From Herbiconiux flava (GTDB lineage Bacteria; Actinomycetota; Actinomycetes; Actinomycetales; Microbacteriaceae), in NCBI RefSeq assembly GCF_013409865.1, contig NZ_JACCBM010000001.1, forward strand, positions 1,612,001 to 1,676,000: a stretch of 64,000 nucleotides of DNA, in the 5' to 3' direction. The notes below the pieces were generated by a model that was not told where the DNA came from, ran no database searches, and saw nothing but the letters and a program-made list of their open reading frames with translations. Positions 39,586 to 64,000 of the stretch are shown piece by piece. Each line of letters begins with the position of its first letter. Position 1 is the first letter of the stretch. The translations under genes were made by a program, and so were the position numbers.

Positions 39586-39661
39586 GCCGGCCTGGCGCAA
39601 TTGGTAGCGCACCGCTCTTGTAAAGCGGGGGTTACGGGTTCGAGTCCCGTGGCCGGCCCCA
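39586..39661 (+). tRNA. tRNA-Thr (anticodon TGT), integration target
   Basis: Cloverleaf with acceptor GCCGGCC/GGCCGGC, D-arm GCGCAATTGGTAGCGC, anticodon arm CCGCTCTTGTAAAGCGG with TGT, a variable loop GGGTT and T-arm ACGGGTTCGAGTCCCGT. The sequence continues CCCA, so CCA appears encoded at 39659-39661. From 39622 onward the 3' half is repeated at 43628-43669, showing that an element integrated here and rebuilt the tRNA end. Confidence 0.95.
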
Positions 39662-39663
39662 CG
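39622..39663 (+). repeat. attL, 42-bp direct repeat within tRNA-Thr
   Basis: Identical at every base to 43628-43669. It begins with the AAAGCGGGGG side of the anticodon stem and ends just past the tRNA CCA at ACG. The bases on either side differ between the copies (T and A here, G and C at the right copy), so the repeat length is exact. Confidence 0.95.
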
Positions 39664-39696
39664 ATCCGTTGTTCTGCGCGGAACTGCCGCTGAGGC

Positions 39697-40496
39697 TCAC
39701 GCCGCCGCCGAGCCGCCAGTCATGATTTGCTCATGATGAGCATTCTTCTCTGCGCGAGCTAAGGCTTTCGCTCGTGCTGCCTCGACCTTCGAAGTGACCT
39801 CATCGAGCCGATCGGGCCACAGATGGCCGTACGTGTTCAGTGTCTCCGTAGCGTCCCGGTGACTCAACATCCTCTGCACCAGCTTCACGTCGGCGCCGGC
39901 TGCGATCGCCATGCTCGCAGCGGTGTGACGCAGCTTGTGCGGTGTCACACCCACCTCGTCGAGGCCCGCCCCGCGACCGCCTTGGCCCACACTCGAGGCC
40001 GCCAGTTGTGATCGTGGACGGCCTGACCAGATTGAGCGCGGAAGACGTATTCGTCGTCCGTGCGCCCATCGAGTAGTGGCTTCAGTTCTTCCACGATGAA
40101 GCTCACCAGAGGAACCACGCGACGTTCACCGGTCTTCGGCATTCCAAGCTTCCGGGCTCCAGCCGCGTCGATGGTCCAGGTCCTCCGGACGGACACTCTC
40201 CTAGTGGTGATGTCGACGTCGGCGACCGTCAGAGCCAGCGCCTCGTTGATCCGCAGCCCCGAGTAGGCCAGCAGCAGAACCAGGGCCCTATCGCTCTGCG
40301 TGCCGGCAGCTTCGGCCGCGTCCGCGAGCGACTCGACTTCCTCGAAGTTGAGGTAGATCTGCTCCGCCTTCTGCGATGCCGGAAGCTTGACGCCGGCAGC
40401 GGGGTTGGAGGAGACCCATCCCGCCTTCACCGCGTACCCAAGAACCGCCGACGTGACGTAGTGCAGACGATCGATACTCGTCAAGCTCGCCGGCGC
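39697..40496 (-). pseudogene. tyrosine recombinase (phage integrase), truncated and frameshifted
   Basis: The minus strand encodes the end of a core-binding domain ('SLTSIDRLHYVTSAVLGYAV') and a catalytic domain with the first Arg in 'LAYSGLRINEALALTV', HxxR in 'TPHKLRHTAASMAIA', and the nucleophile in 'LNTYGHLWPDRLDE'. The frame changes near 39965-39985, in a GCGGGGCGGG run: '...VWAKAVAG' must shift by one base to reach 'GLDEVGVTPHKL'. The N-terminal arm-binding domain is absent, replaced by opposing phage coding sequence at about 40500. It lies beside attL as expected for an integrase. Both lesions should make it inactive. Confidence 0.88.
39719..39740. repeat. left arm-type repeat (candidate integrase binding site)
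   Basis: GTCATGATTTGCTCATGATGAG contains two TCATGAT words and is matched by GTCATGATCTGGTCATGATGG at 43483-43503. It lies 55 bases inside attL and within the end of the integrase reading frame. Mirror placement of the same word near both ends suggests integrase arm sites flanking attP in the circular form. Confidence 0.6.
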
Positions 40497-40512
40497 AGCG
40501 TCGGCCGAGTCG

Positions 40513-40683
40513 ATGCTCGTCAACAACAACTTGACGGTGCTTGGCAAAGCCAGCGTGGTCGATGACGTCGAGCTCATCAGCAATCTGGACGTACCGAACC
40601 TGCCACCAGTGCCAACGGGCATGACGACGTACGAGGTGGTCGTTGGTTCCAACGGGCGGCTATACCGCGGCCCTGCCATCTGA
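40513..40683 (+). pseudogene. C-terminal fragment of a phage tail / structural protein
   Basis: The plus-strand frame from ATG 40513 reads 'MLVNNNLTVLGKASVVDDVE', then 'LISNLDVPNLPPVPTGMTTY' and ends '...VVVGSNGRLYRGPAI' at TGA 40681-40683. Repetitive N/G/V-rich strands of this kind are typical of minor tail or tail-fibre proteins of actinobacteriophages. There is no room for the rest of the gene because integrase coding sequence on the other strand begins just upstream. I take it as a deletion endpoint. Confidence 0.6.
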
Positions 40684-40709
40684 CGAAGCGGTGCCGGTAT
40701 GGTCGGGGT

Positions 40710-40895
40710 GTGGCAGAAACCTCGATCCCAGGAGTCGGTATCGCGACCTATGAAGTCCGGACCGAGAGCTTTTACCAGCCTGGCTACGAGCTTCGAACAG
40801 CCGAGGACATCCGCGTCGACGGCGCGGTCCCCGACGCGGCGACGAAGCAGCTGGTCGAGGCCCACCTGAAGCGGCTCGCGATCATCAATCAATAG
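40710..40895 (+). CDS. small phage-like protein
   Basis: 61 residues with GTG start: 'MAETSIPGVGIATYEVRTES', a central 'YQPGYELRTAEDIRVDGAV' and a helical end 'KQLVEAHLKRLAIINQ'. It follows the tail fragment by 26 bases in the same direction and precedes another small gene. This is the place where phages keep small accessory tail or lysis-module genes. No family recognised. Confidence 0.55.
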   Translation: MAETSIPGVGIATYEVRTESFYQPGYELRTAEDIRVDGAVPDAATKQLVEAHLKRLAIINQ

Positions 40896-40927
40896 GCGTC
40901 GCTCCGATCCGCCTTGGAGGCAATGAA

Positions 40928-41251
40928 ATGAGCAACGAATCGAGTGACCTGGACCAGTCGATAGTCGAGCTGGCTCGCGAGCAGGTCGATGCGCTCGAGG
41001 TACCAGAGTCGGAAGTCAGGCGCATCTATCTGGAGCTCGCCGCGCTCGCTCAGGACACCGAGTTGCCCGGACCGGAGTTCGTGCTCGCGCAGGTCGGCTT
41101 TCTGGCCATGACGACCGCTCTGCGTGAGAACTTCGAGAAGAAGACTCCACTGCAGGAGCAGGCCGACTTCCTGCGGGCACGGCGCGAGATCAAAAAGCTC
41201 ACTGGTATCGAGGTCAGGAACCCCTATGACGTCTCGCCGCCTTCTTCGTAA
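40928..41251 (+). CDS. small helical phage-like protein
   Basis: 107 residues, acidic and helical ('DQSIVELAREQVDALEVPES', 'FLAMTTALRENFEKKTPLQEQ'). Its ATG follows TTGGAGG at good spacing. It is third in the plus-strand row after the tail fragment and converges on the next minus-strand gene with a 28-base overlap. Function unknown. Confidence 0.6.
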   Translation: MSNESSDLDQSIVELAREQVDALEVPESEVRRIYLELAALAQDTELPGPEFVLAQVGFLAMTTALRENFEKKTPLQEQADFLRARREIKKLTGIEVRNPYDVSPPSS

Positions 41252-41628
41252 AGATCTTCCCTGATTTCTGCCTCGCGCATTGCTAGACCCGCAAGCGTCG
41301 CTTCGATCTGACCGATACGAAGCGCATCCCCGTAGCTCTCAGCCACCTGAAGCCAGTAGCGATTCTTCTCTTGGTCCGCGAGAACTTGCTGCAGCTCGTT
41401 TCGGAGCGACCTCTCGGCACGAGTGGCGAGTGTGTGCTGAGCTGCCGCTTCCGCAGCGCGAGCGTATGCCGTCTGCTCCTCAGCCGCGCGAGCTCTGCGA
41501 TTCGCAAGGACGCTGTCTCGTATTGCGACGATCAGCGCAAGAAGAGTAACCAGACCGATGAATACATTGGCGGCGAAATTCCACCAATCCGAGGCTGAAT
41601 CAGGAGCGAAAGGGTTACCGGTGAGCAT
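41224..41628 (-). CDS. single-pass membrane protein with coiled coil
   Basis: 134 residues. A short periplasmic start ('MLTGNPFAPDSASDWWN'), one membrane helix (~18-38, 'VFIGLVTLLALIVAIRDSVL') and then a long charged Ala/Glu/Arg/Gln helix (~42-125), probably a coiled coil facing the cytosol. It is downstream of the AbiV-like gene on the same strand (20 bases apart), so it may be co-expressed as a partner. It could instead be a phage membrane protein. No family recognised. Confidence 0.6.
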   Translation of the reverse strand: MLTGNPFAPDSASDWWNFAANVFIGLVTLLALIVAIRDSVLANRRARAAEEQTAYARAAEAAAQHTLATRAERSLRNELQQVLADQEKNRYWLQVAESYGDALRIGQIEATLAGLAMREAEIREDLYEEGGETS

Positions 41629-41648
41629 CCGCCGAGCTTAGCGAAAGG

Positions 41649-42401
41649 TCAAGCCGCCGACTCCGGTTCGTTGCCGCCGCCGCCGCCGCCGTAAGGAGTG
41701 CCTGTCTCTGAGAGCCGCCCGATCGCGTCGTCTTGGGCCTCCCAGCCCTCTCTCGACTGTCGCTGCACCGCAAGGCGACCGCCATCCGCGTAGGCGGCGT
41801 AGAGGTCAGTGTCTGGGATTGCCGATCGATCGGGCTGCTCACCGATGAACTTGATGTGGTCGCCCAAGCGAAGCTGCCACCCGATTTGATCGACGATCGC
41901 GACTAACTCCGCGACGTCGTCGCCAGTCTCGTCGTAAGGCTTGCGGGTCCGACCGGTCCCCTTGTCGATGTCGACGTACAGGCCGCTCATGCGATTCGCG
42001 CTCTGCTTCTCGGCGAACGCGTCCAGATCCGCGAGATAGTCCTCAACCGATCCGAGGAGCAGATCGTTGGGCTCCGGCGGCTCGACATCGAACCAGTAGT
42101 CGTGGTTCAGGATGAACGCGCGCACCTCACGCAGCTTGGGCTGATGATTGCGCCAGTCCCGCCAGAACTGATCGTCCAGCTCGGGGTCGCGGTGGCCGGC
42201 GGTGTGGCTGACGATCTTTGCCTTGTGAATCATGATCGCCTTGCCGGATTCCTCGAGAGCCACGATCGCGAGTGCACGGGCCCTGCCGCCGGCACCTACT
42301 GCAGCCAGAGCTTCGGCTTCCCGTGCCAGGCGCCACGCGTTCGACAGGAGCGCGTCGTAGAGCGACTCGACCTGCTCGAACGTCAGCTTTCGATTCGCCA
42401 C
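41649..42401 (-). CDS. abiV: AbiV-type abortive infection protein
   Basis: 250 residues from GTG 42401 ('MANRKLTFEQVESLYDALLS'), chosen because homologous sequence starts here and a GGGGG-containing ribosome site precedes it. The N-terminal ~110 residues match AbiV/HEPN-like proteins: 'NAWRLAREAEALAAVGAGGR', 'ARALAIVALEESGKAIMIHK', and 'FWRDWRNHQPKLREVRAFIL' with the conserved His. The C-terminal ~130 residues are unassigned and end in a Gly-rich tail. AbiV stops phage propagation by interfering with translation in infected lactococci. Here it is cargo of a decayed prophage. Confidence 0.7.
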   Translation of the reverse strand: MANRKLTFEQVESLYDALLSNAWRLAREAEALAAVGAGGRARALAIVALEESGKAIMIHKAKIVSHTAGHRDPELDDQFWRDWRNHQPKLREVRAFILNHDYWFDVEPPEPNDLLLGSVEDYLADLDAFAEKQSANRMSGLYVDIDKGTGRTRKPYDETGDDVAELVAIVDQIGWQLRLGDHIKFIGEQPDRSAIPDTDLYAAYADGGRLAVQRQSREGWEAQDDAIGRLSETGTPYGGGGGGNEPESAA

Positions 42402-42432
42402 CGTAACCCCCGCCCTCGACGTTACCTGCAGC

Positions 42433-42597
42433 CTAGCGATCACCCCAAGCGCCCTTCGGGGTGAAGTTCTTGCCGGCCGGCACCATCGCGTGCAGCGCCG
42501 CTCTATGGCATGCGGCCGCGGCGTCCGCGAGGGTCCCGAAGTAGCCGATGAGCTCGCGCGGCTCGGTCGATACATTCACTGCGCGGAAGCGCCACAC
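42433..42597 (-). CDS. 54-residue protein with AP2-like motif
   Basis: From GTG 42597: 'MWRFRAVNVSTEPRELIGYF' then 'GTLADAAAACHRAALHAMV' and 'PAGKNFTPKG'. The pattern WR-R, G-F-T, AA-A---AA and a final NF agrees with the second half of AP2 DNA-binding domains, which in phages often accompany HNH endonucleases. The usual N-terminal strands are missing or very short, so it may be a fragment. It lies 31 bases upstream of the abiV start on the same strand. Confidence 0.45.
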   Translation of the reverse strand: MWRFRAVNVSTEPRELIGYFGTLADAAAACHRAALHAMVPAGKNFTPKGAWGDR

Positions 42598-42893
42598 CGT
42601 CTCGAGGCCGCGGCGTACCGTACTGCGAGGTAGCGGATCTCCACAAACGGCCCCTCTGTGCCCGGGCGGGGGAAGAGCCAAGTGGTGGGCAGGACCGTGT
42701 CTACGGGATGCCAAGCGGGCAACAGGGGCTCCTCTCTCGGGAGCGCGCCGGCCCGCGCACCAAGACCGTAGCAGTGCCCTCGGACAGCGCCCGTCTTGCG
42801 CTCGTGTGCCCAGCTGTCTCAGATACGACACCTATCCGGTCGGTTCGTGACAGCGTAGGTGCAGCCGCCTCCGCACGTGTCTAGAGTCGCTGC

Positions 42894-43400
42894 GTGACCA
42901 CCCGCGACGCAGCTCTGGCGAATGTCAAGACGAACCTACGTGCAGCGATGCAGCAGGCCCGACTCTCGCCAGCAGAGGTCGCTGCTGCCGCTGGAATGAA
43001 CCGCTCTACCGTTTCCCGGAGGCTGCTCGAGGGTGCCGACATGCCCATAGCCGATGTGTTCAGGATCGCACTGGCCTGCGGAGTGGACCCCGTCGAGATG
43101 TTCGCGGAATCAGGCCGCGTCGAAACTGGAGCCTCATCTGGAGCGCAGGCACAGACAAATCGACTAGCCGCGTTCGTTCGGACGATTGTGCGCGAGGAGC
43201 TGCTTCGATCCGACAACGCGAAGATCGCCTACTCTATCCCGGAGGCTGCAGACGCCGCAGGGCTGAGCACCACCTCGATCAGGAACGCGATCGCCCGCAA
43301 CGACCTCGTGCCATCGTTCTACGGGCCTAAGCCGTTGCTGCCGCGGGCCGAACTTGAGCGGTGGCTCGTGGCCATGCCGTCCGAGCCCCCACGGAGGTAG
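42894..43400 (+). CDS. XRE-type regulator with excisionase-like C-terminal domain
   Basis: 168 residues, GTG start. Residues ~10-65 form a helix-turn-helix of the Cro/CI class ('LSPAEVAAAAGMNRSTVSRR'). Residues ~112-160 resemble the winged-helix excisionase/MerR-like module ('YSIPEAADAAGLSTTSIRNA' then 'LLPRAELERWLVAMP'). The combination suggests an element-encoded repressor or a directionality factor. It is the last gene before attR. The 296-base gap before it (42598-42893) contains no gene that I can support. Confidence 0.7.
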   Translation: MTTRDAALANVKTNLRAAMQQARLSPAEVAAAAGMNRSTVSRRLLEGADMPIADVFRIALACGVDPVEMFAESGRVETGASSGAQAQTNRLAAFVRTIVREELLRSDNAKIAYSIPEAADAAGLSTTSIRNAIARNDLVPSFYGPKPLLPRAELERWLVAMPSEPPRR

Positions 43401-43471
43401 GGGACCCCTCGCCCCCATCAATCGCGAGCCCGCTTCGCGTTCTGCCTCTCGCTGTGCGCATGAGTCTGGGG

Positions 43472-43607
43472 GGTACTTCGATGTCATGATCTGGTCATGA
43501 TGGCCCGCGGCTCAAGCGTGAAGTAGCGGAATCAAGACGAACCGTTCCGGCGCCCGGGTTTCGCATGCCTGCGCGCTTCTCGGACGCAGGGGAAGGTACT
43601 TAGATGT
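43472..43607. repeat. right arm-type repeats near attR
   Basis: GTCATGATCTGGTCATGATGG (43483-43503) matches the left arm site at 39719. In addition GGTACTTCGATGT (43472-43484) and GGTACTTAGATGT (43595-43607) form a direct repeat, 12 of 13 bases identical. These lie 20-155 bases inside attR with no gene between, as integrase and excisionase sites usually do. Basis is sequence likeness only. Confidence 0.55.
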
Positions 43608-43627
43608 ACTGCGAAGTGACGCGAGAG

Positions 43628-43669
43628 AAAGCGGGGGTTACGGGTTCGAGTCCCGTGGCCGGCCCCACG
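43628..43669 (+). repeat. attR, 42-bp copy of the tRNA-Thr 3' half
   Basis: A perfect copy of 39622-39663, lacking the tRNA 5' half, so it is not a functional tRNA. It marks the right boundary of the integrated element and the old 3' end of the original tRNA-Thr gene. Confidence 0.95.
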
Positions 43670-63410: not shown

Positions 63411-64000
63411 TCAGAAGCTGAGCAGGATCTTGCCCCGTCGGCCGGGCACCGCGCTCGCGGCGGCGGCCTCGCGGCCCTGCTCGATCGGGTAGACGGCCTC
63501 GACCGGCAGTTCGACCTCGCCCGAGCCGACGCGCTGGAGCAGCTCGCCGAAGAGGGCGTTGCGCTTGGCCGGGTCCATGTCGCGGCTGACGGTGCTGCCC
63601 CAGAAGCCCTTGACGGTGGCCTGCTTGAAGATCAGGTCGCCCGAGGAGAGCTGGAGCTGGCCCGACTCCATCGCGCCGAACGAGACGAGCGTGCCGTTCT
63701 CACCGAGGAGTGACAGCAGCTCACCGGCCGAGGCCCCGCCCACGGAGTCGACGGCGGCCCGCGGGCTCGCGCCGTCGAGCAGCTCGGCCACCCGGTCGCG
63801 CCAGCCGTCGTGCTCGGTCGACACGACGTCGCGGATGCCCACCCGGGCCAGCTCGTCGACACCGGCGTCGCGGCGCACGAGCCCGAGCACCCGCACCCCG
63901 CGGGCGGCGGCGAACTGGGCGAGCAGCTTGCCCACGGCGCCGTTCGCGGTGTTCTGCAGGATCCAGTCACCCTCCTGCACGTCGAGGAAGTCGAGCAGGC
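63411..64000 (-). CDS. zinc-type alcohol dehydrogenase / enoyl reductase-like (partial)
   Basis: The C-terminal ~196 residues of a medium-chain reductase; the 5' end lies beyond the window. The NAD(P)-binding part shows 'DWILQNTANGAVGKLLAQFA' (with AxGxxG-like glycine motif) and 'VRVLGLVRRDAGVDELARVG'. 'AAVDSVGGASAGELLSLLGE' and 'LVSFGAMESGQLQLSSGDLI' place it near the MECR/quinone reductase branch, which has no catalytic zinc. Substrate unknown. Confidence 0.85.
   Translation of the reverse strand, partial: LLDFLDVQEGDWILQNTANGAVGKLLAQFAAARGVRVLGLVRRDAGVDELARVGIRDVVSTEHDGWRDRVAELLDGASPRAAVDSVGGASAGELLSLLGENGTLVSFGAMESGQLQLSSGDLIFKQATVKGFWGSTVSRDMDPAKRNALFGELLQRVGSGEVELPVEAVYPIEQGREAAAASAVPGRRGKILLSF

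Follow-up and report, generated by a model that had tools for sequence, protein, structure and literature searches.

A cos-like motif beside attR in a 4-kb tRNA-Thr island of Herbiconiux flava: a possible integrase-broken, satellite-like element

Islands that bear a phage-type cos (packaging) site can be packaged by the terminase of a helper phage, as described for the cos-type Staphylococcus aureus pathogenicity islands (SaPIs) and the phage-inducible chromosomal islands (PICIs) of Gram-negative bacteria. SaPIbov4 and SaPIbov5 contain a conserved phage cos sequence, and the Gram-negative PICI EcCICFT073 contains two cos sites (PMC5052747, PMC6092414, PMC6739421). In actinobacteria, two Streptomyces satellites, MulchRoom and MiniFlayer, carry terminal repeats and bring their own terminase, portal and capsid genes; MulchRoom also encodes a tyrosine integrase and a helix-turn-helix (HTH) protein, and predicted Actinomycetota PICIs are mentioned by the same source (PMC10690885). 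With respect to integration, the attP of CrimD has its core in the 3’ end of an RNA gene with paired 11-bp arm sites on both sides, the arm pairs of L5 and Giles are in direct orientation, and the N-terminal part of such integrases binds the arm sites (PMC3203893). Cis-mobilizable elements (CIMEs), which stem from integrative and conjugative or integrative and mobilizable elements, keep attL and attR after losing the integration gene (PMC5704250). Here we describe a 4.0-kb island at tRNA-Thr in Herbiconiux flava that shares features with each of these systems. It lies in a 64,000-nt stretch of the source genome (G000, C1:1612001-1676000), hereafter the window, which we compared with other genomes, designated by G-numbers: 16 from the genus, G000 included, and 398 in family-wide scans.

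Like cos-type PICIs, the island combines integrase-type attachment at a fixed site with a phage-type cos sequence, here cos-like by sequence. It differs from them in its 4-kb size, its broken integrase, its actinobacterial host and the position of the cos-like motif beside attR, and no replication or capsid-redirecting module was recognised in it. With MulchRoom it shares the actinobacterial host group and the pairing of a tyrosine integrase with an HTH protein, but terminase, portal, capsid and terminal repeats were not recognised in the island. Its attachment region is laid out as in the attP of L5, Giles and CrimD, with 11-nt-spaced direct pairs on both sides of a core in a tRNA 3’ end, although the arm sequence, the spacing (~56 and 145 nt) and the target tRNA are its own and its integrase is without the arm-binding part. 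As in a CIME, attL and attR are kept and the functional integration gene is lost; unlike in a CIME, the island has no recognised gene for conjugation, and a cos-like site and phage-type features are found instead. The literature searched, mostly outside subscription journals, contained no description of this arrangement for satellites with cos sites in this group or for Herbiconiux prophages. On balance, we lean slightly toward reading the island as an integrase-broken, cos-type satellite-like element.

A previous reading of this DNA from its letters alone (the sequence-only reading) proposed an island bounded by exact 42-bp att repeats. The exact repeat is present, with different bases beyond it on both sides (Table 1). 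Because the tRNA gene stops at 39661 and the repeat at 39663, 2 nt of the repeat extend past the tRNA; the remainder is the tRNA 3’ half. The proposed check, an empty site in related genomes, was found twice: G013 and G001 each hold one core copy in which the host flanks join (left 93% and right 88% identity in G013, 90% and 80% in G001), so the repeat is not a product of chance. These empty sites, an integrase of the corresponding type and arm-like pairs at both ends strongly support the view, already taken in the sequence-only reading, that a tyrosine recombinase integrated the island at the tRNA 3’ end. The 42 nt are the maximal identical stretch, and the length of the functional core is a separate matter: the islands of G004 and G012, which contain related integrase fragments, share ~39-40 nt in the core and vary in its final bases. 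The claim of a core of exactly 42 bp stands for the identity; the functional core may differ.

The tRNA-Thr site is variably occupied across the 16 genus genomes. An island with a related integrase is present in three (G000, G004 and G012), and three others (G006, G011 and G014) have different DNA, with ~4.7-6 kb separating the tRNA from the matching gene downstream and only partial core-like copies. The site is cleanly empty in two (G001 and G013). In seven (G002, G003, G005, G007, G009, G010 and G015) the interval is shorter than 1 kb and the integrase has no DNA match, and the contig of G008 stops before tRNA-Thr. Outside att and integrase, blastn aligned little between the interiors of the window, G004 and G012 islands. 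The GC content is 63.5% within the window island and 70.4% in the remainder of the window.

Both ends of the island carry a short word repeated twice at 11-nt spacing, GTCATGATTTGCTCATGATG on the left (39719-39738) and GTCATGATCTGGTCATGATG on the right (43483-43502). When the 3.85-Mb source genome was searched at up to 2 mismatches, the arm pair was found at exactly these two sites; the reversed pattern, the control in our scans for arm pairs and for the cos-like motif, was found at none. In the window, G004 and G012 alike, the right pair starts exactly 145 nt before the core and the left pair lies 55-56 nt past the left core. The left pairs of G004 and G012 have one or two changes that weaken the second word. 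The right pair is identical at 18-19 of 19 positions among the three islands, compared with just 40-47 of the next 126 nt (ungapped). A like geometry with other words occurs in G082 at tRNA-Thr (~58 and 146 nt), G346 at tRNA-Lys (56 and 146 nt) and G362 at tRNA-Met (~65 and 144 nt). These paired repeats look like integrase arm sites, to which the enzyme would presumably bind.

The cos-like motif was first seen as a match to contig ends in G011. It lies 9 nt from the right arm pair, reading into attR, and the double-HTH gene stops 29 nt before it. Two scans of viral contigs with motif patterns returned four contigs in total (L246, L247, L248 and L249). In the first three the motif is at most 0.4 kb from a small terminase gene, followed by the large terminase gene, and in L247 and L248 an HNH gene lies within ~2 kb before the motif; L249 has the motif with no terminase or HNH gene nearby. 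The proteins in the small terminase position match phrog_226 (minor tail protein) best and phrog_1897 (terminase small subunit) second in PHROGs. We favor the latter because of their position before terL and the annotation of Arthrobacter homologues. A third scan with the 3’ half of the motif also returned four contigs: L248 again, L273 with an HNH gene 1.3 kb before the motif, and two with neither. Among phage records, the G011 copy of the motif had 16 weak matches, 11 of which look unrelated. The other five are from Arthrobacter: in four records (three phages, Tweety19 twice) the matched stretch of the linear record is nt 2-29 or 6-29, and in SWEP2 it adjoins an HNH gene. In Tweety19 and VroomVroom, the 3’ part of the motif falls at about nt 10-29 of the linear record, with terS close to the left end and HNH at the opposite one.

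Across the 398 family genomes, exact matches to the motif are confined to G000 and G011. With one mismatch allowed, the motif is found in 11 genomes and the reversed control in 6, so lone one-mismatch matches mean little. Of the nine genomes that match with one mismatch, three (G089, G286 and G291) have terminase genes within 1.1 kb, two (G168 and G227) carry the motif without a terminase gene found around it, and four (G030, G081, G109 and G256) look like chance. Within the genus, at up to 3 mismatches, the motif occurs once in G000, at five sites in G011 (two of which may be one copy because contig ends overlap) and in no other genome, with no match for the reversed control. In sequence and position, 43430-43473 thus resembles a cos region.

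Gene order around the motif differs between the island and the regions that retain terminase genes. The G089, G286 and G291 regions run from HNH through cos, terS, terL and portal to protease, with a tape measure gene from ~11-13 kb on. In the window, unlike in all three of these regions, the motif sits beside attR without terS or HNH. A parallel is an element in G011 (C15:1-13000 and C16:1-400; L242, L243), in which ~12 kb lie between 24-nt cores at tRNA-Leu(TAA). This element encodes a full-length integrase ~36% identical to an intact relative of the window integrase in G093, an excisionase-like HTH protein, a head maturation protease and a 981-aa tape measure protein, and it contains tandem cos-like copies; no terminase was found in it. 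Its motif is ~50 nt from the right arm pair and reads toward the pair as in the window, and its head and tail genes lie on the opposite side of cos compared with G089, G286 and G291. We consider the G011 element a candidate for a fuller satellite than the window island. Searches with the large and small terminase proteins (TerL and TerS) of viral contig L248 (E up to 1e-5 and up to 1e-4, respectively) gave no match in G000 or G011; in the genus, TerL matched in 3 of 16 genomes (G006, G007 and G015) and TerS in 1 of 16 (G007). Since the window and G011 agree despite distant integrases and different tRNAs, cos beside attP is an arrangement of two elements, and one that deletion alone would not readily yield.

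The integrase that the sequence-only reading placed between the repeats is there (PF00589), yet it is truncated at the N-terminus and frameshifted. Relative to the intact 429-aa integrase of G093, which lies beside tRNA-Thr on a contig that stops before any attR, the window retains residues 173-355 and 356-427, split over two frames, and nothing corresponding to the sequence before residue 173 was found in the window. Because the N-terminal third is lost and the frame is shifted, the island is fixed today, barring an integrase in trans. The remaining C-terminal codons (68-85 codons compared) have a ratio of nonsynonymous to synonymous substitution rates (dN/dS) of 0.09-0.14, which indicates selection on the gene through most of its past, and the breakage looks recent. 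N-terminal truncation is shared by five of the six both-ended islands of this attP geometry (the window, G004, G012, G082 and G362, not G346), and cores and arm pairs are retained in all six. This count leaves out G011, whose spacing differs and whose full-length integrase is distant. Islands were reached through the integrase C-terminus and att repeats, so the truncated fraction is biased and elements with one end lost go unseen. In IMG/VR, the integrase C-terminus has relatives on contigs of 27-34 kb (59-64% identity over ~120 residues), and among the matches listed in a search of named genomes we found mainly Streptomyces relatives and Firmicutes metagenome-assembled genomes.

Table 1. Features of the tRNA-Thr island and its target gene, in window coordinates
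Feature	Position	Strand	Basis
tRNA-Thr(TGT), target gene, intact on attL side	39586..39661	+	ARAGORN; Rfam RF00005 67.6 bits (39586-39658)
attL core copy	39622..39663	+	exact 42-nt direct repeat
Integrase fragment, catalytic C-terminal part	39697..39969	-	PF00589 39.1 bits (ORF 39697-39990); 39754-39969 = residues 356-427 of intact relative
Left arm-type pair, within 3’ end of int	39719..39738	+	two direct repeats 11 nt apart
Integrase fragment, different frame	39969..40505	-	PF00589 48.7 bits (ORF 39945-40892); residues 173-355 of intact relative
56-codon open reading frame (ORF), weak tail-fibre-like resemblance	40513..40683	+	one viral contig, 40% identity, query residues 4-38
61-aa ORF, no assigned role	40710..40895	+	weak phrog_6046 match, 7.7e-4
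107-aa ORF	40928..41251	+	no match in Pfam, PHROGs, PADLOC, TIGR, phage records or viral contigs
134-aa protein, by eye one membrane helix and coiled coil	41224..41628	-	translation; weak PHROG matches
AbiV-family abortive-infection-type protein, 250 aa, intact	41649..42401	-	PF18728 80.4 bits (cut-off 27.1); TIGR04498 81.5 bits (cut-off 27)
132-aa ORF, start uncertain	42433..42831	-	no family in Pfam, PHROGs, PADLOC or TIGR
Regulator, N-terminal XRE-type HTH and C-terminal HTH_17/excisionase-like domain	42894..43400	+	PF13560 33.9 bits, PF12728 29.5 bits, both above cut-off
cos-like packaging-site motif	43430..43473	+	sequence match and position
Right arm-type pair, starting 145 nt before core	43483..43502	+	two direct repeats 11 nt apart
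attR core copy	43628..43669	+	exact 42-nt direct repeat

These observations are suggestive of a history in which a phage-type element would have entered tRNA-Thr by means of a tyrosine integrase, its attP core flanked on each side by one pair of 11-nt-spaced direct arm sites. The terminase of a helper phage would recognise the cos-like site and package the element, and the AbiV-family cargo could affect phage infection of the host. Later, the integrase would have lost its N-terminal third and acquired a frameshift, leaving the island immobile unless an integrase acts in trans. Helper packaging and a satellite way of life are thus suggested by the island’s layout. Profile scans of nine island ORFs against Pfam and PHROGs recognised no terminase, portal or capsid gene, no other structural gene, no lysis, replication or capsid-altering gene and no conjugation family; apart from the integrase and the HTH protein there were weak matches only. 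Since no replication family was among these nine ORFs, we do not file the island as a PICI. The absence of terminase and virion genes would also be expected of a collapsed prophage and fits both readings.

Several observations weigh against a satellite. The island, at 4.0 kb, is very small and has a dead integrase, and no phage is known to act as its helper. Window segment 43401-43482 matched nothing in phage records at E up to 1, segment 43405-43500 had two unrelated weak matches among plasmids, and the Arthrobacter matches, obtained from the G011 copy, have E-values of 2 to 7 and so count through position alone. The G004 and G012 islands at the same tRNA have no motif at up to 3 mismatches. 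The G011 element is spread over two contigs, whose 41-nt overlap falls in a tandem repeat, so some hidden sequence is conceivable. Two further motif-bearing loci are possible plain remnants: in G168 (C1 ~2443981, L278) the order is HNH, cos-like motif and tape measure, with an integrase ~5.5 kb before, and no terminase or portal was found in 60 kb; in G227 (C12:673644; L276, 19145) most of the longer motif lies beside tRNA-Ala, and no terminase, HNH or related integrase was found in 40 kb.

The sequence-only reading took the island for a decayed prophage. In its strong form, a temperate phage at tRNA-Thr would have been almost entirely deleted, so that the integrase C-terminus, both att ends, cos and a small set of cargo genes from the right end survive, and we regard this as quite possible though short of probable. 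Similarity to the integrase ceases near residue 173 of 429, and 8 nt on an ORF starts on the opposite strand; relatives of the integrase C-terminus reside in contigs of 27-34 kb; the low dN/dS points to recent breakage, as after a deletion in situ; and the loci in G168 and G227 may be debris with cos-like motifs. However, what comes after the motif in G089, G286 and G291 is a block of terS, terL, portal and protease, whereas in the island it meets attR after 9 nt, so that the deletion route requires a break within that 9-nt gap. Moreover, the end is the same in G011, where the integrase is distant, the tRNA is a different one and the head and tail genes lie across cos. The decay is supported for the integrase, and a prophage is one possible origin. 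The motif stands beside attR without terminase or HNH, unlike in the three terminase-bearing regions and like in G011. No structural phage gene was recognised, and a single 56-codon ORF has one weak viral match. A satellite-like origin fits at least as well as a prophage origin.

More tentatively, the island could be CIME-like. An integrative element of any kind would have shrunk by deletion to an islet that retains attL, attR and the arm sites, an integrase supplied in trans would move it, and the cos-like site would be incidental; this account overlaps with both the satellite and the prophage readings. It accords with the truncated integrases of five of six both-ended islands, in which cores and arm pairs are kept, although that six-island sample, in which elements missing one end are unseen, is biased. 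It also accords with a separate acquisition of the window island, which we deduce from synonymous divergence (dS; rough, with sites near saturation): integrase dS is 1.48 between the window and G012 and 1.42 between the window and G004, exceeding the dS of a neighboring host gene (0.50 and 0.53, respectively). Against it, the source genome has no close full-length integrase elsewhere (the best other match is 36% identical), and no second locus with this truncated junction was encountered, no systematic search having been made. The same dS values disfavor one ancestral insertion behind all three tRNA-Thr islands, with G013 and G001 having lost theirs by clean excision. The three of 16 genus genomes do share the tRNA, a related integrase and similar arm pairs, but the window integrase is nearly three times as diverged from those of G004 and G012 as the host gene is (a rough ratio, near saturation), the spacers next to the right pair agree at 40-47 of 126 positions and the interiors hardly align. 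We therefore consider a single insertion very improbable for the window island together with the other two; the G004 and G012 islands, whose integrases differ by a dS of 0.91, may share an origin.

If the satellite-like reading is preferred, a broader and rather doubtful proposal is that Microbacteriaceae hold a family of cos-type satellites built cos-attP-int-cargo, with the integration module in place of the helper’s terminase genes. The window island would be a stripped, integrase-less member and the G011 element a fuller one. In that case the G011 element, with its tape measure and head maturation protease, could alter the capsid or tail of a helper, and stripped members may spread in trans, having kept cos, core and both arm pairs. 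The isolated actinobacterial satellites encode their own capsid and terminase, as far as the available part of the source describes them (PMC10690885), so a terminase-less cos-like element would suggest that cos piracy reaches this group and would link an AbiV-family gene to such a satellite-like element. More examples could be sought as cos motifs away from terminase genes and near att sites, and small tRNA islands labelled ‘prophage remnants’ may be satellites.

We also assessed the cargo of the island. The proposed defence gene is borne out as a member of the AbiV (HEPN) family, scoring above cut-off for both PF18728 and TIGR04498, and an anti-phage function may be predicted from this family match. 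A family search listed 45 proteins including the protein itself, the nearest other being 79% identical, and the window protein is full length relative to its relatives (26 of the 45 aligned). The gene is sporadic, occurring in 4 of 398 family genomes, its own included, at E up to 1e-10. The protein was not found in viral contigs and has no match in PADLOC. The 20-kb stretches surrounding its homologues in three genomes (G227, G421 and G132) revealed no related integrase. Another possible defence cargo is encoded in the G004 island (L053 2367-3215), a protein with a sub-threshold match to AbiJ_NTD4.

The regulator, likewise correctly recognised from the letters, is a double-HTH protein (PF13560 and PF12728). 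In PHROGs it matches phrog_66, excisionase and transcriptional regulator (8.9e-8); its match to TIGR01764 is below cut-off, and its C-terminal half is excisionase-like. In a protein database it matches itself alone. An excisionase or regulatory role is thus predicted. Winged HTH (wHTH) Rpp proteins act in PICI packaging (PMC6739421), and as a guess in either case the double-HTH protein might control excision or act in packaging in the manner of these proteins. We considered an assignment to mad1, for which PADLOC gave a match of 2.4e-10 over residues 113-141, the HTH_17 part, and two weak matches, and read it as a shared HTH. The G004 island encodes a 103-aa protein near attR with a below-cut-off HTH_17 match.

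The remaining ORFs offer little to support the description of ‘phage-like genes’, which rests on weak matches. The tail-fibre-like ORF had no match in Pfam, PHROGs or phage records, nor in the G168 stretch, and the 61-aa ORF had none in phage records or viral contigs. The 134-aa membrane protein had nothing above the Pfam cut-off, and a comparison of the membrane proteins of the window, G011 and G227 revealed no significant similarity. DNA like that of the 132-aa ORF recurs elsewhere in genus genomes, including G000 itself (C1:111903-112143, 67%) and the inserts of G006 and G014. The whole island had no blastn match among 50,697 phage records, and a scan for promoters and terminators did not rise above shuffled sequences.

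Further traces of attachment sequences were observed. At ~60 nt past the tRNA in G003 (L059) and G010 (L063), or past attR in G012 (L054), the tRNA-Thr 3’ end is partly repeated, perhaps as the scar of an older att site. An inverted 18/22 match to the att core at 42392-42413, at the start of the AbiV gene, is probably due to chance. The window also contains a tRNA-Ser(GCT) at 63658-63751. Relatives of the integrase lie ~24-25 kb from tRNA-Thr in G001, G007 and G013 and ~29 kb from it in G006, the match in G013 beginning at residue 131, as if truncated; judging by this distance, tRNA-Ser(GCT) may be a second insertion site.

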